Source: Clostridia bacterium (lineage in GTDB: Bacteria; Bacillota; Clostridia; Oscillospirales; Acutalibacteraceae). From it: DNA of 64,000 bases. The stretch spans positions 1 to 64,000 of the forward strand of contig JAFYKZ010000026.1 in assembly GCA_017537365.1 (NCBI GenBank), read 5' to 3'. Position numbers and translations under genes: made by a program. Positions within the stretch are counted from its first letter, which is position 1, and each line of letters opens with the position of its first letter. Below the pieces are notes generated by a model. The model had not been told where the DNA came from. It did not search any database and saw only the letters and a program-made list of their open reading frames with translations. Below, piece after piece: positions 42,569 through 53,719 of this stretch.

Positions 42569-43253
42569 TATAATGTTATCTGCAATATATCCTAACAGGT
42601 GTGTTGTTTGCGGTGAGATTATCCCTGAGGGTGAAAGCTTGTGTGAGTTTTGCTCTGAGTTTATTGAAGTTTGCGATACTTCGAAGCTTTGTATAAAATG
42701 CGGCTCAATGAAGAAAAATTGCTATTGTAATAAAAGAAGCTTTTATTACGATGGATTAGTAGCACCATTTTTAAATGAAGAAAACGCAAGAAAAGTGGTT
42801 TATAGCTTTAAACTTAACCGAAAAGAAAGATATTGCCGTTTTCTAGCCGAAAGAATGGCAGTTACCATAAAACAATGTTATGATGTTGATTTTGATTATG
42901 TAACCTATGTACCTATGAAAATTTCAACAGTCTTTTCTCGCGGTTTTAATCAAAGTTATTTGCTAGCAAAGGAATTATCTAAGAATTTAGGTATTCCGCT
43001 AGGTTACAAATTTTTAAAATGCGTTAAAAGTAACAAACCGCAACATGAACTATCAGGCAAAGAAAGATTTGATAATGTTAAAGGTTTGTATTCTGCGCCA
43101 GATTTGCCTGCAGGTGTTAAAATTCTTTTGGTAGACGATATAAAAACAACAGGTGCTACTTTAAACGAATGCGCAAAAGAGCTTTATAAGGCAGGTGCAA
43201 GCTCGGTTTATTGCGTTGCAGCACTTTTAAGTGAAAAAAAGAAAGGAAAATAA
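42555..43253 (+). CDS. comF: ComF-family phosphoribosyltransferase-like protein
   Basis: A 232-residue ComF homologue. Cys pairs CVVCGE, CEFC, CIKCGS and CYC in the first 55 residues form a zinc-binding head, followed by a type I PRTase fold with VLLVDDIKTTGATL as the PRPP loop (ILLVDDIKTTGATLNECAKE). In B. subtilis ComFC supports DNA uptake during transformation, but homologues occur in non-competent species. It overlaps recD2 by 14 nt and is followed immediately by the mreB-family gene, so the three may be co-transcribed. Confidence 0.92.
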   Translation: MNLFNIMLSAIYPNRCVVCGEIIPEGESLCEFCSEFIEVCDTSKLCIKCGSMKKNCYCNKRSFYYDGLVAPFLNEENARKVVYSFKLNRKERYCRFLAERMAVTIKQCYDVDFDYVTYVPMKISTVFSRGFNQSYLLAKELSKNLGIPLGYKFLKCVKSNKPQHELSGKERFDNVKGLYSAPDLPAGVKILLVDDIKTTGATLNECAKELYKAGASSVYCVAALLSEKKKGK

Positions 43254-43254
43254 T

Positions 43255-44277
43255 ATGGCAACAGATATTGGAATAGATTTAGGAACTTCTAAAACTGTTA
43301 TATTTTCAAGTTCAAAAATAGTGCTTGAAAAGCCTAATAAAGTAACGGTTGATGCTGATACTTGGGAACCGGTTTATTTTGGTGAGAGAGCTAAGCAGAC
43401 CTTGGGAAGAACGCCCGAAAGTTTAATGTGCATAAGTCCTATTGAACACGGTGTTATTGCGGATTATGATATTGCTGAGGCTATGCTTAAAAAATATATG
43501 GCAACCGCTTTTGGAAGTAAAATAATGCGTCCTCGAATTATGGCAACTTTACCGCCAGGACTTACCGAGCTTCAACACCATTCGCTTGCAAATGTAGTTG
43601 AGGCGGCAGGAGGCAGAAATATCTCGGTTATTGAAGGACCATTAGCCACAGCATTTGGTTTAGGTCTTGATTTAGAAACTCCACGCGGAAGCTTGATAGT
43701 TGATATTGGTGCAGGAACTACCGATATTGCGGTTATTTCAATGGGAGGTATTGTGGTTTGTGATTGCCTTAAAACTGCTTCGCTTGATTTTGATGCGCAG
43801 ATTATCAGATATATCAGAAAAGAATACAATGTTGAAATAGGACCTCTGACAGCCGAATCAATTAAAATTAAAATTGGCTCTGCTATAAAACGCGATATTG
43901 AGGTTGCTATTATGGCAAAAGGAAGAAATGTTTTTTCAGGACTTCCCGAAAGCTTTGAAATTTCAAGCAGTGAGGTTTATGAAGCAATTTCTGACACAGT
44001 TAATACAATTTGCAACGGTATAAGACTGGTGCTTAACAAAACTAATCCTGATTTGGTCTCCGATATTATGGCAGATGGTCTTTATTTAACAGGCGGCGGC
44101 TCGCAGCTTGTAGGACTTGACAGCAAAATATCCGATTACTTAGGTATTAAGGTACATACGGTTGAAAACCCGTCATATAGTGTTGTTAAGGGAGCTGCTG
44201 TGGCGCTTAATAAACCTAATTTGCTTAAAAATATTGATTATCAATTAAGAAGTATTAAAGAACTTGAAATTAAATAG
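43255..44277 (+). CDS. mreB: MreB/Mbl-family cell-shape actin homologue
   Basis: A bacterial actin forming membrane-associated filaments that guide side-wall synthesis. Its 340 residues start DIGIDLGTSKTVIF (phosphate-1), with VDIGAGTTDIAVIS as phosphate-2 and YLTGGGSQLVGLD as the adenosine motif. The ATG at 43255 is preceded by AAAGGAAA; an in-frame ATG at 43231 would lie inside comF and was rejected. MreC and MreD are not adjacent, so it may be an Mbl/MreBH-type paralogue rather than the mreBCD copy. Confidence 0.92.
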   Translation: MATDIGIDLGTSKTVIFSSSKIVLEKPNKVTVDADTWEPVYFGERAKQTLGRTPESLMCISPIEHGVIADYDIAEAMLKKYMATAFGSKIMRPRIMATLPPGLTELQHHSLANVVEAAGGRNISVIEGPLATAFGLGLDLETPRGSLIVDIGAGTTDIAVISMGGIVVCDCLKTASLDFDAQIIRYIRKEYNVEIGPLTAESIKIKIGSAIKRDIEVAIMAKGRNVFSGLPESFEISSSEVYEAISDTVNTICNGIRLVLNKTNPDLVSDIMADGLYLTGGGSQLVGLDSKISDYLGIKVHTVENPSYSVVKGAAVALNKPNLLKNIDYQLRSIKELEIK

Positions 44278-44318: not shown

Positions 44319-44347
44319 TTGACAAATGGAAATTTTTGCAGTAAAAT
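44319..44347 (+). promoter_or_regulatory. Aromatic operon SigA promoter
   Basis: TTGACA (44319-44324), 17 bp, TAAAAT (44342-44347). The start is predicted near 44354, leaving a leader of about 190 nt before the first large gene. Confidence 0.87.
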
Positions 44348-44383
44348 ATTTTATAGTTTTTTAATTTGAAAGAGGTGGACAGC

Positions 44384-44461
44384 GTGTTTAAATCTTATTT
44401 TATTAACTTTTTTTACTTTATAATCACGGACTGTCTGTACCCGATTAAAGCTAGTATTTAA
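44384..44461 (+). CDS. Phe/Tyr-rich leader peptide of the aromatic operon
   Basis: A 25-codon ORF too short for normal gene calling. GTG start, with GAGGTGG (44372-44378) 5-6 nt upstream. It encodes MFKSYFINFFYF in its first twelve residues, then a further Tyr at 19, and ends at TAA 44459-44461. Five Phe (2, 6, 9, 10, 12) and three Tyr (5, 11, 19) out of 25 is far above background. It sits between the aromatic promoter and an intrinsic terminator, the position of pheL and trpL attenuator peptides. Control by charged tRNA-Phe and tRNA-Tyr is inferred. Confidence 0.8.
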   Translation: MFKSYFINFFYFIITDCLYPIKASI

Positions 44462-44479
44462 TCTTTTACATTCAGCCCG
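44427..44479 (+). promoter_or_regulatory. Candidate antiterminator hairpin of the aromatic leader
   Basis: CGGACTG-TC-TGTA (44427-44439) pairs with TACA-TT-CAGCCCG (44467-44479), with one A-C mismatch and a 2x2 internal loop. It encloses a perfect 7-bp hairpin GATTAAA/TTTAATC (44443-44449 with 44457-44463). It uses bases 44474-44479, the left arm of the terminator, so the two folds exclude each other. A third element, GGACAG (44377-44382) with CTGTCT (44431-44436), could break the antiterminator. Confidence 0.65.
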
Positions 44480-44518
44480 CATTCGTTGTACTTATGTATA
44501 CGAGTGGCGGGCTTTTTT
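44474..44518 (+). terminator. Attenuator terminator of the aromatic operon
   Basis: The stem core AGCCCGC with GCGGGCT (44474-44480 with 44507-44513) extends inward through ATTCGT/ACGAGT, ending in T6. It lies before the first structural gene, not after a gene, so it is a regulated premature terminator. Confidence 0.9.
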
Positions 44519-44546
44519 CAATAATAAAAATAAAGAGGGTAAAATT

Positions 44547-45737
44547 ATGTTTTCAGAAAAAATGATGGAGCTTGGTAAAAAGCGTTCGGTTATAAGAGAA
44601 ATTTTTGAATATGGCAATTTGAGAAGAAGCCAAATAGGAACAGAAAATGTTTTTGATTTCAGCCTAGGAAACCCCAGTATTCCTGCCCCTGATGTTGTAA
44701 ACGAGGTTATGACCGATTTAATTAAAAATAAGCCGTCGGTAGCGCTTCATGGTTATACCTCTGCTCAGGGTGATGCAGGAGTTAGAAAAGCTATTGCAGA
44801 TAATATCAATGAGCGCTTCCAAGCAGATGCTAAACCCGAACTTATATATATGACCTGCGGTGCGGCAGCATCTTTAACGATAACATTAAATGCTTTATTA
44901 AATACAGGTGATGAGGTTGTTTTATTGGCGCCATTTTTCCCTGAATACAGAGTGTTTGTTAAAAAAGCGGGCGGTGTTGTTAAAACGGTTAAATGCCGCG
45001 AAGAAGATTTTCAAATTGATTTTTCAGCGCTTGAAAAGGTTATAAACGAGAAAACTAAGGCTATTATTATCAATTCTCCTAATAATCCCAGCGGTGCAGT
45101 TTTAAACCGCGAAACAATAACCCTATTGGCAGAGCTATTGAATAAAAAAGCTAATGAATTTGGTACTGATATATATGTTTTGGCAGATGAGCCTTACAGA
45201 GAATTGGTTTACAATGATTTAGAAGTGCCATATATACCTAATTTCTATGATAATACGGTTGTTTGCTATTCTTATAGTAAATCTTTATCATTACCTGGAG
45301 AGCGTATTGGTTATATATATGTATCCTCAAAAGCTAAAAATTATGGCGATTTATATGCCGCAGTTTGCGGTGCAGGCAGAGCGCTAGGCTTTGTTTGTGC
45401 CCCTAGTCTTTTGCAGTATACAGTAAAAGAGGTTTTAGGAAAAACCGCCGATATTTCGGTTTATGAAAAGAACAGAAACTTGTTATATAATGCATTAACC
45501 TCTTACGGTTATACCGCAGTCCGTCCTGACGGTGCGTTCTATTTGTTTATAAAATCTCCCGAAGCAGATGCAAACGCTTTTTGCGAAAAAGCCAAAAAAT
45601 ACGAATTATTGTTAGTTCCTGGTGATGATTTCGGTTTTGAGGGATATGTTAGAATCAGTTATTGCGTTAGCACCGAAATGATTGAAAAGGCTCTGCCTGA
45701 GTTTGAAAAATTAATTAACGAATATAAGGTGAAATAA
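44547..45737 (+). CDS. PLP aminotransferase class I/II, probable aromatic or prephenate aminotransferase
   Basis: A 396-residue fold-type I aminotransferase. DFSLGNPSIPAPD and HGYTSAQGDAGVRKA mark the N-terminal part, NSPNNPSGAVL the cofactor region, and the PLP lysine is K245 in YSYSKSLSLPGERIGY. It is the first structural gene of the aromatic operon and ends 1 nt into pheA (overlap). In this context it probably converts phenylpyruvate and hydroxyphenylpyruvate to Phe and Tyr, or transaminates prephenate. Aspartate aminotransferase is the alternative; substrate cannot be read from the sequence. Confidence 0.88.
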   Translation: MFSEKMMELGKKRSVIREIFEYGNLRRSQIGTENVFDFSLGNPSIPAPDVVNEVMTDLIKNKPSVALHGYTSAQGDAGVRKAIADNINERFQADAKPELIYMTCGAAASLTITLNALLNTGDEVVLLAPFFPEYRVFVKKAGGVVKTVKCREEDFQIDFSALEKVINEKTKAIIINSPNNPSGAVLNRETITLLAELLNKKANEFGTDIYVLADEPYRELVYNDLEVPYIPNFYDNTVVCYSYSKSLSLPGERIGYIYVSSKAKNYGDLYAAVCGAGRALGFVCAPSLLQYTVKEVLGKTADISVYEKNRNLLYNALTSYGYTAVRPDGAFYLFIKSPEADANAFCEKAKKYELLLVPGDDFGFEGYVRISYCVSTEMIEKALPEFEKLINEYKVK

Positions 45738-46825
45738 TGACCGAATTAGATATTGCCAGACAAAATATTAATGATATAGATAAGAAAATGGCGGCGCTTT
45801 TTGAGGAGCGTATGAGAGAAGTTAAAAAAGTAGCAGAGTATAAGCGAGAGTATGGTCTGCAAGTGTTTGACAGTAGCCGTGAAGCTCAAATCTTAGCTAA
45901 AAATTCTGAACTTATTAAAGACGAGGATTTAAAGCAATATTATATTAATTTTTTGCAGAGCAATATGGATATTTCAAAAAAATATCAGCACCGTCTTTTA
46001 GAGGGAATGAAGGTAGCTTTCAGCGGTGTTGAGGGCGCATTTGCAAATATTGCCGCTAACAAGATTTTTCCCGATGCTTCTGCGATACCTTTTTCGGACT
46101 TTAAATCTGCTTATAATGCAGTAGTTTCAGGCGAGTGTGATTGTGTTATTTTGCCGATTGAAAACAGTTATAACGGCGATGTTGGTCAGGTTATGGATTT
46201 GGCCTTTTTCGGTCCGCTTTATATAAACGGAGTTTATGATATTTCGGTTGTTCAAAATCTTTTGGCAGTTAAAGGAACTACTATTGATGAGATTAAAACT
46301 GTAATAAGTCATCCTCAGGCTCTCGGTCAATGCTCTTCATATATTAAAAAGCATGGTTTTGAAACAATAGAAGCGGTTAATACTGCGGTTGCCGCAAAAG
46401 AGGTTGCAGATTCTAAAAGACGCGATATAGCGGCTATTGCAAGTGAAGAGGCAGGTATTAAATACGGACTTCAAAAGCTTGAAGCTCATATCAATGAAAG
46501 CAATAATAATACAACAAGATTTGCTGTTTTCTCAAGAACTGCAAATATAAATTCGGATTCTGATAATCATTTTATTATGCTTTTTACTGTTACTAACGAA
46601 GCGGGCTCGCTAGGAAAAGCAATTTCAATTATAGGAGATAACGGATTCAACCTGAAAGCCTTAAAAAGCAGACCGACAAAGGAACTTATTTGGAGTTATT
46701 ATTTCTTTGTTGAGGGCGAGGGTAATATTAATAGCGAGCAAGGCAAAAAGATGTTAGATGAGCTTGAAACCAAATGCAGTGTATTAAAGGTTTTGGGCAG
46801 TTTTGAAAAAGAAATTTTACTTTAA
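45737..46825 (+). CDS. pheA: Bifunctional chorismate mutase / prephenate dehydratase (P-protein)
   Basis: It converts chorismate to prephenate and then to phenylpyruvate. Residues 1-90 form an AroQ-type chorismate mutase (ARQNINDIDKKMAALFEERM). About 92-270 form the dehydratase (VAFSGVEGAFANIAA, VISHPQALGQCSSYI, and the catalytic NNTTRFAVF). About 272-355 form an ACT domain (FTVTNEAGSLGKAISII) with a degenerate LKSRPTKE site expected to bind phenylalanine. The 362-residue length matches the P-protein family. It overlaps the aminotransferase by 1 nt. Confidence 0.95.
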   Translation: MTELDIARQNINDIDKKMAALFEERMREVKKVAEYKREYGLQVFDSSREAQILAKNSELIKDEDLKQYYINFLQSNMDISKKYQHRLLEGMKVAFSGVEGAFANIAANKIFPDASAIPFSDFKSAYNAVVSGECDCVILPIENSYNGDVGQVMDLAFFGPLYINGVYDISVVQNLLAVKGTTIDEIKTVISHPQALGQCSSYIKKHGFETIEAVNTAVAAKEVADSKRRDIAAIASEEAGIKYGLQKLEAHINESNNNTTRFAVFSRTANINSDSDNHFIMLFTVTNEAGSLGKAISIIGDNGFNLKALKSRPTKELIWSYYFFVEGEGNINSEQGKKMLDELETKCSVLKVLGSFEKEILL

Positions 46826-46839
46826 GGATGTCTTTTAAT

Positions 46840-47835
46840 ATGATAATTCCTGTTAAAACTTCGGTTGGAGAATATAATATTATTCTTGAAAGAGGAAGCT
46901 TGAATAATTTAAATCAATATTTGAAATTAGACCGCAAGGTTTTAATTGTTACTGATAGTGGCGTGCCTGATGAGTATTCGAAAATAGTTTCTAATCAATG
47001 CAAAGAGCCGCATATTATAACAATACCTCAGGGCGAGCCGTCAAAATGTTTTGGTAATTTTAAATATTTATTGTCTAAAATGGTGGAACTCGGGTTTACT
47101 AGAACTGACTGTGTTGTTGCAGTAGGCGGCGGTGTTGTTGGCGATTTGGCAGGCTTTGTTGCGGCTTCTTATATGAGAGGAATTTCATTTTATAATATAC
47201 CTACCACCGTTCTTTCTCAGGTTGATTCCTCTATTGGCGGAAAGGTTGCAATAGATTTTGAGGGATATAAGAACATAGTTGGAGCTTTTTATCCACCAAA
47301 AGCGGTTATTATTGATGCTAATACCTTAAAAACCTTACCTCAAAGACAAATTTCTAACGGACTCAGCGAGTCGGTTAAAATGGCTATAACATTTGATAAA
47401 GATTTGTTTGCGGTTTTTGAAGAAAGGGATATTTTAAAAAATTTAGATTTGATTATTGAAAAATCGCTCAGAATTAAAAAAATGGTAGTTGAAAAGGACG
47501 AAAAAGAATCTGGTCTCAGAAAGGTTCTTAATTTTGGACACACTTTGGGACATGCCATTGAAAGCGAAAACGAAATGCAAAAATTGTATCACGGCGAATG
47601 TGTTGCTCTCGGTATGATACCGATGTGTTCTGAAAATGTTAAGGCAAGACTTTTAAATGTATTAAATAAATTAAATCTTCCAACTCAAATTGATTTTGAT
47701 ACTAATAAAATTTATGAAGCAATAAAACACGATAAAAAAATGGCTGGCGAAGATATAACTGTTGTTTTTTGTGAGGAAATCGGAACTTTTTCTATGAAAA
47801 ATTTAAAAGTTTCCAATCTTTTAAATGAGTTATAG
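46840..47835 (+). CDS. aroB: 3-Dehydroquinate synthase
   Basis: It cyclises DAHP to 3-dehydroquinate, using NAD and a metal. The start MIIPVKTSVGEYNIILERG and VAVGGGVVGDLAGFVA are typical, as is the zinc-ligand region FGHTLGHAIE. The ATG at 46840 is placed about 10 nt after AAGGAT; the ATG at 46828 overlaps that Shine-Dalgarno and would add four residues, so it is less likely. It has 331 residues, a little short of the usual 350-360. It lies 14 nt after pheA. Confidence 0.95.
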   Translation: MIIPVKTSVGEYNIILERGSLNNLNQYLKLDRKVLIVTDSGVPDEYSKIVSNQCKEPHIITIPQGEPSKCFGNFKYLLSKMVELGFTRTDCVVAVGGGVVGDLAGFVAASYMRGISFYNIPTTVLSQVDSSIGGKVAIDFEGYKNIVGAFYPPKAVIIDANTLKTLPQRQISNGLSESVKMAITFDKDLFAVFEERDILKNLDLIIEKSLRIKKMVVEKDEKESGLRKVLNFGHTLGHAIESENEMQKLYHGECVALGMIPMCSENVKARLLNVLNKLNLPTQIDFDTNKIYEAIKHDKKMAGEDITVVFCEEIGTFSMKNLKVSNLLNEL

Positions 47836-47845
47836 GGGTGAAAAC

Positions 47846-48937
47846 ATGAAAAACATATTAGGAAACAACTTAACTGTTACTCTTTTTGGCGAAAGTCATG
47901 GAGAGGCTATTGGTGCGGTTTTAGATGGTATGCCCGCAGGAATTAAGGTTGACGAAGATTTTATTAAATATCAATTAGATTTGAGAAAGCCTTATGGCAA
48001 GATTTCAACCCCAAGAAAAGAAACAGATAATTTCAAAATTATAAGCGGAGTTTTTGATAGGTTTACAACAGGCGCACCTATTTGCATTTTAATACCCAAT
48101 GAAAATACTAAATCTGCCGATTATGGTGAATTAAAAACCAAAATGCGCCCATCTCATGCCGATTTCGTGGCACATGAAAAGTATAACGGTTTTGCTGATT
48201 TCAGAGGCGGTGGTCATTTTAGCGGAAGAATAACTGCGGCTTTGGTGGCGGCAGGTGCTATTTTAATTTCTGTTTTAAAGCAAAAAGGTATTTTAATCGG
48301 AAGCCATATTTCGCGTTTGGCAAATATTAATGATATGCAATTTTCTGATTTTGAAAAAGAAATAATTTCTTTAAATCAAAAGCAGTTCGCAGTTTTAGAC
48401 GATGAAATTGCCGATGAAATGCAAGAAAAGATTTTAGATGCAGCTAAAATGGGGGACAGTGTTGGCGGTGTTATTGAAACCGCTGTTATAGGTATGCCTA
48501 TTGGAGTTGGCGAGCCTTGGTTTGATACGGTAGAAGGAATGCTTGCAAAGGCTCTGTTTTCTGTTCCTGCGGTTAAAGGTGTTGAATTTGGTTTAGGCTT
48601 TAAAATTTCTGACCTTAAAGGTAGTGAAGCTAATGACGAGCTTTATTATGATGGTGATATAGTTAAGACAAGGACTAATAATAACGGTGGTATCAACGGT
48701 GGTATAACTAACGGTATGCCAATAATTTTCAAAAGCGCAATTAAACCTACTCCGACTATAAGTCTAGAACAAAATACAATAGATATTAAAGAAAAAGTAA
48801 ACACAGTTTTATCTGCCAGAGGTAGACACGACCCTTGCATTGTTCATAGAGCGAGAGTGGTTATTGATAGTGTTACCGCTTTGGTTATATCCGATTTACT
48901 TATTGGTAAATACGGTGCAGATTGGATGGCTAAATAA
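47846..48937 (+). CDS. aroC: Chorismate synthase
   Basis: It forms chorismate from EPSP with a reduced FMN cofactor. The signatures are FGESHGEAIGAVLDGMP (N-terminal), RPSHADFVAHEKY, FRGGGHFSGRITA, and the C-terminal RGRHDPCIVHRA, with the conserved histidines. The 363 residues are complete. The ATG at 47846 follows GGGGTG; an in-frame start at 47825 inside aroB was rejected. The next gene overlaps it by 1 nt. Confidence 0.97.
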   Translation: MKNILGNNLTVTLFGESHGEAIGAVLDGMPAGIKVDEDFIKYQLDLRKPYGKISTPRKETDNFKIISGVFDRFTTGAPICILIPNENTKSADYGELKTKMRPSHADFVAHEKYNGFADFRGGGHFSGRITAALVAAGAILISVLKQKGILIGSHISRLANINDMQFSDFEKEIISLNQKQFAVLDDEIADEMQEKILDAAKMGDSVGGVIETAVIGMPIGVGEPWFDTVEGMLAKALFSVPAVKGVEFGLGFKISDLKGSEANDELYYDGDIVKTRTNNNGGINGGITNGMPIIFKSAIKPTPTISLEQNTIDIKEKVNTVLSARGRHDPCIVHRARVVIDSVTALVISDLLIGKYGADWMAK

Positions 48938-50175
48938 TGGAATACGGTTTAATAGGCGAAAAATTGGGACATAGCTTTTCTAAAACAGTTCACAATAAGT
49001 TGGCTGATTATGAATATGAGTTGTTGGAAATCAAACCCCAAGATTTAGAAGAGTTTATCAGAATTAAAAATTTCAAAGCTATAAATGTTACGATTCCTTA
49101 TAAAGAATTAGTCATTCCTTATTTAGATGAGATAGACGATGTTGCAAAAAAAATCGGCGCGGTTAATACGGTTGTTAATAGAAATGGTAAACTATATGGT
49201 TTTAATACCGATTTTTTCGGGCTTTCAGGTTTGATTGAATACAATGGTATAACTCTTTCTTCTAAAAAGGTTTTAATTTTGGGTAGCGGAGGTACTTCTA
49301 AGACGGCGTATGCCGTAGCAGAAAGCTTAAATGCTCGCGAGATTTGTGTTGTATCCCGTAAAGGCGGCAACGGTTTTATAACCTATGAAGAAGCTTATAA
49401 AAATCACAAAGATGCCGAGATAATTATTAATACAACACCTTGCGGAATGTATCCAAATAATCAAAGTATGGCTATTGATATAAATTGTTTTAATAAGCTT
49501 AATGCGGTTATTGATGTTATTTATAATCCTATTAAAACCGCTTTGGTTATAGAGGCTGAAAAGCGAGGGATAACTGCTATTGGCGGACTTTATATGCTTA
49601 TTTCTCAGGCGGTTTTTGCGGCAGAAAAGTTTTTAAGCTCTCAAATAGAAAAAGAAAAAACTGAAAACATTTTCAAAGAAATACTTAAAGAAAAGCAAAA
49701 TATCGTTTTAATCGGTATGCCTTCTTGCGGTAAAAGCACGATAGGGAAAATGTTATCTGAAAAATCAGGTAAAACATTTGTTGATACCGATGAAGAGATT
49801 GTTAAGCTTTCTAAAATGGCTATACCTGAAATTTTTGAAAAATATGGAGAAAACCATTTCAGAGATTTAGAAAGCGAAGTTATCAAGGAAGTTTCTAAAA
49901 AACAAGAAACTATAATCGCAACAGGCGGCGGTGCTATTTTAAGGCAAGAAAATATTGATTTGTTAAAGCAAAACAGTATTCTTTTCTTTATAGATAGACC
50001 ATTGGAATTTTTAGAATCTACCGCAGATAGACCTTTATCCAGTAATCGAGAGATGCTTGAAAAAAGGTATAACGAGCGTTATGAAAAGTATGTTTCGGCC
50101 GCCGATAAAATTATAAAAGTATCTAATGATTTAGAGGAAAATTTAAGTTTAATTAAAGAAGGCTTTTTTGAATGA
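48937..50175 (+). CDS. aroE-aroK: Fused shikimate dehydrogenase - shikimate kinase
   Basis: A 412-residue fusion of two consecutive pathway enzymes. Residues 1-245 are AroE, with GEKLGHSFSKTVHN, NVTIPYKE (catalytic Lys), GAVNTVV and the NADP site GSGGTSKTA. A linker rich in Lys and Glu (about 236-252) leads to AroK (about 253-412), with the P-loop GMPSCGKST at 260-268, DTDEEI and FRDLESEVI, and TGGGA. Both active sites look intact. It overlaps aroC by 1 nt and aroQ by 4 nt. The fusion is read directly; substrate channelling would be inference. Confidence 0.93.
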   Translation: MEYGLIGEKLGHSFSKTVHNKLADYEYELLEIKPQDLEEFIRIKNFKAINVTIPYKELVIPYLDEIDDVAKKIGAVNTVVNRNGKLYGFNTDFFGLSGLIEYNGITLSSKKVLILGSGGTSKTAYAVAESLNAREICVVSRKGGNGFITYEEAYKNHKDAEIIINTTPCGMYPNNQSMAIDINCFNKLNAVIDVIYNPIKTALVIEAEKRGITAIGGLYMLISQAVFAAEKFLSSQIEKEKTENIFKEILKEKQNIVLIGMPSCGKSTIGKMLSEKSGKTFVDTDEEIVKLSKMAIPEIFEKYGENHFRDLESEVIKEVSKKQETIIATGGGAILRQENIDLLKQNSILFFIDRPLEFLESTADRPLSSNREMLEKRYNERYEKYVSAADKIIKVSNDLEENLSLIKEGFFE

Positions 50176-50606
50176 AAATTTTAGTTATTAATGGACCTAA
50201 TATAAATTTATTAGGGCTTAGAGAACCTCAAATTTACGGTAAAGAGGATTATAATTTTCTATGTAAAAGTATTACCGATTTTGCAGATAAAAAGGGAATA
50301 GAAGTAGAAATTTTTCAATCAAATCACGAGGGTGATTTAGTAGATTTTATTCAAAATGCATATCAAAAATTTGATGGTATAGTTATAAACCCTGCGGCAT
50401 ATACGCATACAAGCGTTGCGATTTTAGACGCGGTTAAAGCGGTTGGTATACCAACGGTTGAGGTGCATATTTCGGATGTTTCAAAACGCGAGGATTTCAG
50501 GCAAATTAGTTTTATCCGTTTAGCGTGTGTTAAAACCATCTCAGGACATGGTTTTAACGGATATTTAGAAGCGATAGATTATTTGATTGAGAATTACGGT
50601 AATTAA
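50172..50606 (+). CDS. aroQ: 3-Dehydroquinate dehydratase, type II
   Basis: It converts 3-dehydroquinate to 3-dehydroshikimate. The 144-residue length and the flavodoxin-like fold mark type II: NGPNINLLGLREPQIYG (with the catalytic Tyr of IYG), FQSNHEGDLVD, INPAAYTHTSVAI, VEVHISDVSKRE. The start overlaps the aroE-aroK stop by 4 nt. It is followed by aroA after 3 nt. The type I enzyme (AroD) is not present in the window. Confidence 0.96.
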   Translation: MKILVINGPNINLLGLREPQIYGKEDYNFLCKSITDFADKKGIEVEIFQSNHEGDLVDFIQNAYQKFDGIVINPAAYTHTSVAILDAVKAVGIPTVEVHISDVSKREDFRQISFIRLACVKTISGHGFNGYLEAIDYLIENYGN

Positions 50607-50609
50607 AAA

Positions 50610-51815
50610 ATGACGATTAGAATTGAAAAAAGTATTGCAAACGGCAAAATTAAAGCGCCGCCGTCTAAAAGTATGGCGCATAGATATTTAATTTGCGGAG
50701 CATTATCCCAAAACAGCGAGATAAAGGGTATCTCAGAGTCTAAAGATATGTTGGCAACCCTTGGATGCTTAAAAACTTTGGGGGCTAACATTGAAAAAGA
50801 TGGTAATAAGGTTAAAATCGGTGGTATTGATTTTAATAAAAATCTAAATCATCCTGTTTTAAATTGTTACGAAAGCGGTTCAACTTTAAGATTTTTAATA
50901 CCTATTTGCTTGCTTTTTGGCCAAGAAATAACCTTAACCGGTTCAAAAAGATTATTTGAGCGTTCTCTTTCGGTTTATGAGCAGATTTGTGCATCTCAAA
51001 ACATTAAGTTTATAATAGGTGAAGATAGAGTTACTGTGAGCGGTAAACTGACCGCAGGTACATATACCGTTAGAGGTGATATTTCCAGCCAGTTTATTAG
51101 CGGGCTTATGTTTGCTTTATCTAAACTTCCGAATGATAGTGAAATTAAAATCACCGAAAAATTAGAAAGTGCTTCTTATTTATCTTTAACTATTAAAGCG
51201 CTTGCTAAATTTGGCGTTAGAGTTAGCAGGATAGATGAGAGAACTTTATATATTAAGGGTAATCAAAATTATAAAAACCGCATTCTGAGCGTTGAGGGGG
51301 ATTATTCTAATGCCGCTTTCTTAGATGCATTTAATTTGTTTTCAGGAAATGTTGCAGTTAGAGGTTTATCAACTAATACCGCGCAAGGTGATAGTGTTTA
51401 TAAAGAGTTTTTTTCGTTGCTTCAAAGTGTAAGACCTACTATTGATTTAACTGATTGCCCCGATTTAGCACCAATTTTAATGGCAATAGCTGCTGCTAAA
51501 AATGGTGCAGTTTTTACAGGAACTTCGAGGCTTAAAATTAAAGAGAGCGACCGCGGTCTTGCTATGAAAGAAGAACTTAGTAAATTTGGTGTTTCTTGCA
51601 TAGTTGATGAAAATAAAATCATTGTTAAAAAAAGCCGTTTGCACGCACCTAAAAGCGCTTTAAACGGTCACAACGATCATCGTATTGTTATGGCATTAAG
51701 CGTTTTACTGAGCTTAACAGGCGGTGAAATTGCAGGGATAGAGGCGGTTGCAAAAAGTTTTCCTGATTTTTTTGAAAAGATTATTAAGTTAGGCATTAAG
51801 GTAAGTGTTATATAA
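50610..51815 (+). CDS. aroA: 3-Phosphoshikimate 1-carboxyvinyltransferase (EPSP synthase)
   Basis: It joins shikimate 3-phosphate and phosphoenolpyruvate. APPSKSMAHRYLICGAL, SGSTLRFLIPI, DISSQFISGLMFAL, and the C-terminal LKIKESDRGLAMKEEL and HNDHRIVMALSV are visible; together these form both substrate sites. The 401-residue length is slightly below the usual 420-430. The Shine-Dalgarno is poor (only TTACGGTAAT), so translation probably depends on ribosomes leaving aroQ, 3 nt upstream. Confidence 0.95.
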   Translation: MTIRIEKSIANGKIKAPPSKSMAHRYLICGALSQNSEIKGISESKDMLATLGCLKTLGANIEKDGNKVKIGGIDFNKNLNHPVLNCYESGSTLRFLIPICLLFGQEITLTGSKRLFERSLSVYEQICASQNIKFIIGEDRVTVSGKLTAGTYTVRGDISSQFISGLMFALSKLPNDSEIKITEKLESASYLSLTIKALAKFGVRVSRIDERTLYIKGNQNYKNRILSVEGDYSNAAFLDAFNLFSGNVAVRGLSTNTAQGDSVYKEFFSLLQSVRPTIDLTDCPDLAPILMAIAAAKNGAVFTGTSRLKIKESDRGLAMKEELSKFGVSCIVDENKIIVKKSRLHAPKSALNGHNDHRIVMALSVLLSLTGGEIAGIEAVAKSFPDFFEKIIKLGIKVSVI

Positions 51816-51817
51816 TT

Positions 51818-52675
51818 ATGAAACTAATAAAAAAGGTTAATATTTTAATTGTTGGTTTGGGATTGCTTGGTGGTAGCTATGCTAAGGGACTTAAAAAAAT
51901 GGGTTTTGAAGTTTCTGCTATAACCAAAGATAAAGAATCAATTGATTATGCATTGAAACAAAATATTATTGATTTAGGAACAACCGAAATCGATGCAGAA
52001 ATAATAGGTAAAGCTGATTTGGTTATTTTTGCGCTTTATCCTCATATTTTTACTGAATGGATAAAAAATAATCAACAATATTTTAAAAGCGGTGCAATTT
52101 TAACCGATGTTACAGGTGTTAAAGGCAATATAGTTTATAAAATTCAAGATATATTAAGAGAAGATGTTGAATTTATCGCGGCTCACCCAATGGCCGGTAA
52201 AGAGGTTAGTGGTGTTGAAAATAGTGATGATGCTATTTTTAAAGGTGCAAACTATATTGTTGTTCCGACCGAGAAAAACACACCTGAAGCCATAGAACTA
52301 TGCAAAAATTTAGGTGAACTGTTAGGCTTTAAACAGGTGGTTGAATTATCAGTTTCAGAACATGATGAAATGATTGCATTTTTATCTCAGTTAACCCATT
52401 GTATAGCAGTTTCGCTTATGTGCTGTAATGATAATGAGGGATTAGAAAAATACACGGGAGATTCTTTTAGAGATTTAACCAGAATAGCTCGCATTAACGA
52501 TGAAATGTGGAGTGAACTTTTTTTGAGCAACAAAGAAGCATTGCTTAATGAAATGGATAAATTCAAAAAATCTTTTGATGAAATGTATGATATTATAAAA
52601 AATGATAATCGCGATGCTTTGCGTGGAATGATGAAAACTTCCACTATACGTCGAGAAGGTTTTGATAAGAAATAA
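51818..52675 (+). CDS. tyrA: Prephenate dehydrogenase
   Basis: It oxidatively decarboxylates prephenate to 4-hydroxyphenylpyruvate for tyrosine. The NAD site is IVGLGLLGGSYAKGLKKMG (about 11-29). The catalytic-region motifs are AAHPMAGKEVSGVENSD and LTHCIAVSLM, with the substrate-binding FRDLTRIARI. The 285 residues comprise only the dehydrogenase, without an added chorismate mutase or ACT domain, so mutase activity must come from pheA. It lies 2 nt after aroA. Confidence 0.95.
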   Translation: MKLIKKVNILIVGLGLLGGSYAKGLKKMGFEVSAITKDKESIDYALKQNIIDLGTTEIDAEIIGKADLVIFALYPHIFTEWIKNNQQYFKSGAILTDVTGVKGNIVYKIQDILREDVEFIAAHPMAGKEVSGVENSDDAIFKGANYIVVPTEKNTPEAIELCKNLGELLGFKQVVELSVSEHDEMIAFLSQLTHCIAVSLMCCNDNEGLEKYTGDSFRDLTRIARINDEMWSELFLSNKEALLNEMDKFKKSFDEMYDIIKNDNRDALRGMMKTSTIRREGFDKK

Positions 52676-52687
52676 GAGGTGCTTAAA

Positions 52688-53719
52688 ATGAGTATGAACT
52701 TTTTGAGGAAATTGCAAATTCCTAAAGATATAAAAGAATTATATCCGCTAACTGAAGAAATGAAAGTGGTTAGAGAACAAAGAATTAACGAATTAACCGA
52801 TATATTCAGTGGTAAAAGTGATAAGTTGGCGTTAATAATCGGACCTTGTTCAGCTGATAATAGTGAAGCGGTTTTGGATTATATATCTCGTTTAAAATTG
52901 CTTGAAGAAGAAGTTAAGGATAAAATATTTATTGTTCCAAGAATTTATACCAATAAACCGAGAACCACGGGGGACGGTTATAAAGGTATGCTTCACCAGC
53001 CAAATCCCGAAGAAAATCCCGATATGCTTAAAGGTATTATCGCAATAAGAGATTTGCATTTAAGCGCTTTGAGAGATTATGGTTATGCTTGCGCTGATGA
53101 AATGCTATATCCCGAAAATTATCGTTATCTATCTGATTTATTGGCTTATGTTGCAGTTGGCGCACGCTCGGTTGAAAATCAACAACATCGTTTAACTGCA
53201 AGCGGAATTGAAGTTCCTGTTGGTATGAAAAATCCAACAAGCGGAGATTTATCTATTATGATGAATTCAATCACCGCTGCTCAACATAAACACACGTTTA
53301 TTTATCGCGGTTGGGAAGTTAAAAGTGATGGTAATCCTTTTGCTCACGCTATTTTGAGAGGTTCTATTGATTTTGCGGGCAAAAATGTTTCTAATTATCA
53401 TTATGAAGACTTAGTTAAACTATATAATTTGTATGGCGAAACAAACCTTTTAAATCCATCGGTTGTTGTTGATACAAATCATGCAAATTCAGGTAAACAA
53501 TATCTCGAACAAACAAGAATAGCTACCGATGTTATTCATAGTTGCAATCATAATGATGATATTAAGAAAATGGTTAAGGGCTTAATGATTGAAAGTTATA
53601 TTGAGGATGGCGCTCAAAAAATAGGCGAGCATATCTATGGCAAATCTATTACCGACCCTTGCTTAGGATTTGAAAAAACTCGCGATTTAGTTTTGAGAGT
53701 TGCTGATATGAGAAAATAA
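52688..53719 (+). CDS. aroF: 3-Deoxy-7-phosphoheptulonate (DAHP) synthase, class I AroFGH type
   Basis: It condenses erythrose 4-phosphate and phosphoenolpyruvate, the first shikimate step. IGPCSADNSEAVLDY (metal-ligand Cys), PRTTGDGYKGMLHQPN, AVGARSVENQQHRLTASG and the VDTNHANSGKQ metal site are typical of AroG/AroF. The protein has 343 residues. The ATG at 52688 follows AGAGGTG; an in-frame GTG at 52679 is part of that Shine-Dalgarno. Being last in the operon, it closes the pathway with the first enzyme. Feedback specificity (Phe, Tyr or Trp) cannot be told from the sequence. Confidence 0.95.
   Translation: MSMNFLRKLQIPKDIKELYPLTEEMKVVREQRINELTDIFSGKSDKLALIIGPCSADNSEAVLDYISRLKLLEEEVKDKIFIVPRIYTNKPRTTGDGYKGMLHQPNPEENPDMLKGIIAIRDLHLSALRDYGYACADEMLYPENYRYLSDLLAYVAVGARSVENQQHRLTASGIEVPVGMKNPTSGDLSIMMNSITAAQHKHTFIYRGWEVKSDGNPFAHAILRGSIDFAGKNVSNYHYEDLVKLYNLYGETNLLNPSVVVDTNHANSGKQYLEQTRIATDVIHSCNHNDDIKKMVKGLMIESYIEDGAQKIGEHIYGKSITDPCLGFEKTRDLVLRVADMRK

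Follow-up and report, generated by a model that had tools for sequence, protein, structure and literature searches.

A predicted leader-peptide attenuator of phenylalanine and tyrosine synthesis in uncultured Clostridia

Ribosome-mediated transcription attenuation is itself a known mechanism, to which the leader described here adds a further case. In Firmicutes it has been established for the ilv genes, by Rli60 in Listeria (PMC5864092) and the ilv-leu leader in S. aureus (PMC5794164), and his attenuators have been predicted in the B. cereus group, Peptostreptococcaceae, and Erysipelotrichales (PMC9413887). B. subtilis bmrCD is a further Firmicute precedent (PMC4191407). By target, the nearest systems are enterobacterial pheA and Acholeplasma uORFC-13-1, which stands before aroF. 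The latter is represented by 24 sequences, from Acholeplasma and environmental DNA only, and is described as having "at least one" Phe codon (PMC8632094).

The window analyzed here is a stretch of 64,000 nucleotides from a Clostridia genome assembly of 1.72 Mb in 31 contigs, whose nearest named relatives are uncultured Clostridia and Oscillospiraceae assemblies, many of them from the ruminant gut. It contains an operon of nine genes for the synthesis of Phe and Tyr (44547-53719); the leader stands over the whole of this shikimate operon, as the original prediction had it. An mreB-like gene (43231-44277) precedes the promoter. Very probably the leader acts by ribosome-mediated transcription attenuation in response to the charging of tRNA-Phe and tRNA-Tyr: a short open reading frame led by a Shine-Dalgarno (SD) sequence lies between promoter and operon, it carries a run of control codons for the products of the operon, a terminator precedes the first gene, and a covarying antiterminator, exclusive with the terminator, is accompanied by a protector helix. 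The consensus promoter and the SD-led frame of 25 codons, with its five Phe and three Tyr codons and the Phe-Phe-Tyr-Phe stretch, were found exactly where they had been predicted, and the antiterminator does share bases with the terminator. The leader region folds with -43.7 kcal/mol, which corresponds to a z of -4.1 relative to dinucleotide-shuffled sequences. Coordinates are given in Table 1.

Table 1. Elements of the leader and genes of the downstream operon in the window
Feature	Position	Strand	Remarks
Sigma-70-type promoter, TTGACA-17-TAAAAT	44319-44347	+	TTGACA 44319-44324, 17 nt, TAAAAT 44342-44347; 11/12 consensus
SD sequence of the leader peptide, AGAGG	44371-44375	+	SD-like sequence also upstream of the aligned leaders
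Strand 1 (SD/start region)	44373-44386	+	pairs with strand 2 (protector helix 1:2; 44373-44386 with 44426-44442)
Leader peptide ORF, MFKSYFINFFYFIITDCLYPIKASI*	44384-44461	+	GTG start 44384; 25 codons; stop TAA 44459-44461
Control codons, Phe-Phe-Tyr-Phe	44408-44419	+	consensus of relatives Phe-Tyr-Tyr-Phe
Strand 2 (antiterminator 5' arm)	44427-44439	+	also partner of strand 1
Strand 3 (antiterminator 3' arm)	44467-44479	+	10/13 pairs with strand 2, 3 mismatches; end 44474-44479 doubles as base of the terminator 5' arm
Intrinsic terminator, hairpin 3:4	44474-44518	+	strand 4 at 44505-44512; U6 tail 44513-44518
First gene, PLP aminotransferase	44547-45737	+	NCBIfam PRK06836
pheA, chorismate mutase-prephenate dehydratase with ACT domain	45737-46825	+	
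aroB, 3-dehydroquinate synthase	46828-47835	+	
aroC, chorismate synthase	47825-48937	+	
aroE-aroK fusion, shikimate dehydrogenase and shikimate kinase in one protein	48937-50175	+	
Type II 3-dehydroquinate dehydratase	50172-50606	+	
aroA, EPSP synthase	50610-51815	+	
tyrA, prephenate dehydrogenase	51818-52675	+	
DAHP synthase, class I, aroFGH type	52679-53719	+	

Most relatives of the same genus carry a homologous leader. We gathered and aligned 55 leaders, defined by an F/Y-rich peptide and a terminator, from the aminotransferase loci of the genus (the gene is present in 50 of 61 genomes) and from 64 loci of a wider contig search. The elements that recur across this alignment are a similar promoter at an equal distance upstream, the SD sequence, the F/Y run, strand 2 (GGACTGYCTG), and strand 3 (CAGCCCGC or CAGTCCGC). 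Of the codons read in the frame of the peptide, 33% specify Phe or Tyr; the two remaining frames, which are mostly broken by stops, reach 10% and 13%, and the genes of the window 8%. The presence of homologues at the same place in relatives, this frame-specific excess, and the helix covariation described below indicate that the leader is more than a product of chance. The upper terminator hairpin (44480-44505 in the window) has a CGCAAYCGTTYRTGC-like sequence that is recognizable across many leaders, a degree of conservation that exceeds the needs of a simple terminator.

Within the genus, the region upstream of the aminotransferase gene takes several forms: the gene directly follows mreB in L016, L018, L019, L021, and L023, it comes immediately after the promoter in L008, L009, and L036, and L033 retains the promoter and a terminator-like hairpin with no peptide found. 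At least nine genomes of the same genus thus have the aminotransferase gene without the leader in front of it, so the leader is dispensable. The attenuator appears to have been lost or to have decayed repeatedly within the genus.

RNAalifold recovered only the terminator from the full alignment, because helices 1:2 and 2:3 are mutually exclusive and strand 1 is poorly aligned, and a plain list of mutual information was too noisy to serve as sole evidence. Given the limits of RNAalifold, we used an alignment-free partner-swap test, in which the pairing energy of a strand with its own partner is compared with that obtained when partners are swapped between species (41 leaders less than 80% identical, 2000 permutations). 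All three helices pair better with their own partners: -12.75 versus -9.54 for 1:2 (z -8.3), -14.83 versus -11.67 for 2:3 (z -7.7), and -14.08 versus -10.93 for 3:4 (z -9.8), with 0/2000 permutations in each case. Control helices in the same 41 leaders (F/Y codons with strand 2, strand 1 with strand 3, and strand 1 with strand 4) gave null results. Thus, both hairpins of the original prediction show compensatory change in relatives, and the third helix, between the SD/start region and strand 2, which it had missed, is equally well supported. In alignment columns, 77% of the cells of 2:3 are paired, with a covariation of 0.232 versus 0.138 after shuffling, and 87% of those of 3:4. A change of C to U in strand 3 (CAGCCCGC to CAGUCCGC) is often matched by G to A in strand 4; U-A occupies columns 175/220 in 13 sequences, and the U of strand 3 also pairs with an A of strand 2.

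A covariance model, R1, was then built with the 2:3 helix only and searched against samples of 200 genomes from the family, 295 from the order, 391 from the class, and 398 from the phylum. Among the loci retrieved with it were 46 leaders from other genomes, which belong to several families of Clostridia; no genome contributed more than a single leader. All 46 directly precede an aromatic operon, where textbook knowledge would lead one to expect regulation of another kind. An F/Y peptide is readable in every one, although three had to be read by eye. Some few loci are identical or close to training loci, and the held-out test was carried out on 33 others. There, the two helices outside the model gave z -8.8 (1:2) and z -7.3 (3:4), with 0/5000 for each, and 2:3, which the model contains, gave z -5.9; control helices were again null. 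The spread is patchy, with leaders in 16/200 genomes of the family and 31/295 of the order under strict filters that miss weak matches. A search of plasmids with the leader returned no match.

The first gene after these 46 leaders is the aminotransferase in 23, pheA in 10, and DAHP synthase in 13 (L127-L130, L132, L137, L139, L144, L146-L148, L155, and L165). A leader that precedes DAHP synthase instead of the aminotransferase implies that the leader and the gene order of the operon have been rearranged with respect to one another.

The F/Y run is present in every leader, and 88 of 89 contain both Phe and Tyr, in agreement with the conserved Phe/Tyr codons that the original prediction led one to expect; Trp occurs in only two of the 89. 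Aligned at its last codon and read backwards, the run has the consensus Phe (57/89), Tyr (68/89), Tyr (81/89), and Phe (70/89), which indicates that Phe and Tyr each hold set positions. The run starts 16-19 nt ahead of strand 2 in 40 of 41 leaders, the exception being L045 with 13 nt; this spacing is partly built in, as the script picks the run by its end. The distance is just enough for a ribosome with the first run codon in its A site to leave strand 2 accessible. In 41/41 leaders, the stop codon, which was predicted to fall within the antiterminator, is located in the stretch that separates strand 2 from strand 3. Parts, conservation, covariation, spacing, and an exclusive link to Phe/Tyr operons are what the comparison of sequences brings out.

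Of the 31 leaders with an Arg codon at the run or right in front of it, 30 use CGA (e.g., L025, L030, L063, and L109). CGA is the rarest Arg codon in neighboring genes, accounting for 10 of 174 Arg codons in the genes of the window and 12 of 373 (3.2%) in genes adjoining 20 leaders. The bias is evident across several families; its Fisher p of 3e-26 is no true probability, since the sequences are related. The leader of the window itself has no Arg at the run. Models of attenuation stress synchronized starts and codon choice, and in the E. coli trp leader, stalling at the Arg codon beside the Trp codons counts as control (PMC1183508). On one reading, CGA may be a slow codon that holds the ribosome for synchrony.

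These elements suggest the following mechanism. Without a ribosome, the SD/start region of the leader would hold strand 2 in helix 1:2, and the terminator 3:4 would form. With plentiful Phe and Tyr, the ribosome would reach the stop codon between strands 2 and 3 and block 2:3, again leading to termination. When either amino acid is scarce, the ribosome would stall on the Phe-Tyr-Tyr-Phe run and prevent 1:2, leaving strand 2, just ahead of it, free to pair with strand 3, so that RNA polymerase could enter the operon. Stalling, readthrough, and the response to starvation are the steps that we infer. Equilibrium folding with a blocked ribosome footprint hardly distinguished the free leader from one with a stalled ribosome (mean probability of 2:3 of 0.67 and 0.71, respectively), whereas with the ribosome at the stop codon the probability fell to 0.41. 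In most complete transcripts the terminator is favored at equilibrium whatever the position of the ribosome, so control must be kinetic, as in known attenuators.

A conserved T/A-D-C-L stretch follows the run in many leaders, which raises the question of an arrest peptide or metabolite-sensing leader resembling TnaC, where the nascent peptide with its T-D-C-L tail would stall on a ligand and not in response to tRNA charging. We consider this very unlikely. T-D-C-L is strand 2 read in one frame: L013 and L072 read the same GG(A/T)CTGYCTG as GLSV/GLPV, other leaders read strand 2 as GCP or ADR, and the N-terminal part of the peptide is variable in both length and sequence. The RNA of strand 2 is kept while the frame shifts, and thus conservation acts at the RNA level, not on an arrest peptide. 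Even less probable is a functional small protein followed by a terminator that is merely a boundary or sets a fixed level of attenuation. On the one hand, the peptide has an aromatic and hydrophobic character, and trans-acting leader peptides are known (PMC7298713). On the other hand, the F/Y run alone is conserved while the rest of the peptide varies, and such a protein would give no role to the three exclusive covarying helices or to the placement of the stop codon.

The Rfam scan of the leader, at the gathering threshold and at a relaxed E <= 5, yielded chance matches only, with neither Phe_leader nor T-box (RF00230) among them. The T-box search of the source genome gave seven matches (L114-L120), four of them above the Rfam cut-off and none at the aromatic operon. 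One is at pheS (L115, specifier UUC by eye) and one at trpB (L118, specifier UGG), both genes being confirmed by NCBIfam; the others are at thrS (ACC), an isopropylmalate/homocitrate synthase-like gene (CUC), two AMP-ligase-like genes, and aspS, all named by inspection. A T-box riboswitch, or another RNA that binds tRNA or a metabolite directly, is therefore the least credible explanation of the leader, common as T-boxes are at Firmicute amino acid genes and in this genome. Conserved codons, covariation, and the lack of a T-box together favor the originally proposed Phe/Tyr attenuation, and an attenuator here plus the T-box at pheS would provide one cell with two independent sensors of tRNA-Phe.

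More tentatively, and with slightly less than even confidence, we suggest that these leaders form a distinct, widespread class of attenuator in uncultured Clostridia, sensing Phe and Tyr jointly. Its marks would be a protector helix made by the SD region, in many members a slow CGA codon at the run that perhaps times the ribosome against RNA polymerase, and a unit that now stands before three different first genes. The leader could become a new Rfam family. The originally claimed novelty holds in part: among the open-access papers searched, none described a Phe/Tyr shikimate attenuator of Clostridia, which does not suffice to claim priority, and peptide attenuation in Firmicutes was already known. 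Tight coupling of transcription and translation is often doubted in Firmicutes, based on Bacillus; a covarying attenuator found in several families implies that coupling at the leader may be close enough in these Clostridia.

The Listeria Rli60 and S. aureus ilv-leu leaders likewise represent ribosome-mediated attenuation of a Firmicute biosynthetic operon, with mutational support for Rli60 (PMC5864092, PMC5794164), but they respond to branched-chain amino acids and show no sign of common descent with the present leader. The his attenuators predicted in Clostridia and Bacilli share the tandem-codon leader peptide and the terminator/antiterminator arrangement; they differ in sensing histidine and in occurring in far fewer species (PMC9413887). 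Judged by its text description, uORFC-13-1 resembles the Clostridia leader in that it is a candidate Phe-codon uORF, equipped with promoter, SD sequence, and terminator, that precedes DAHP synthase in a low-GC Gram-positive relative (PMC8632094). The enterobacterial pheA leader (pheL) also combines a Phe-rich peptide, an antiterminator, and a terminator before chorismate mutase-prephenate dehydratase. In contrast to pheL, the Clostridia leader has no Phe_leader match, belongs to a different phylum, contains as many Tyr as Phe codons, and precedes a whole shikimate operon. Unlike in enterobacteria, strand 1 of this leader consists of the SD/start region, with the control codons placed after it and ahead of strand 2. 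The T-boxes at pheS and trpB likewise sense the charging of aromatic tRNAs, but unlike the leader they bind tRNA directly, and they sit elsewhere. A large group of uncultured gut Clostridia would thus control the whole Phe/Tyr pathway by a logic of the enterobacterial type, beside T-boxes at pheS and trpB.
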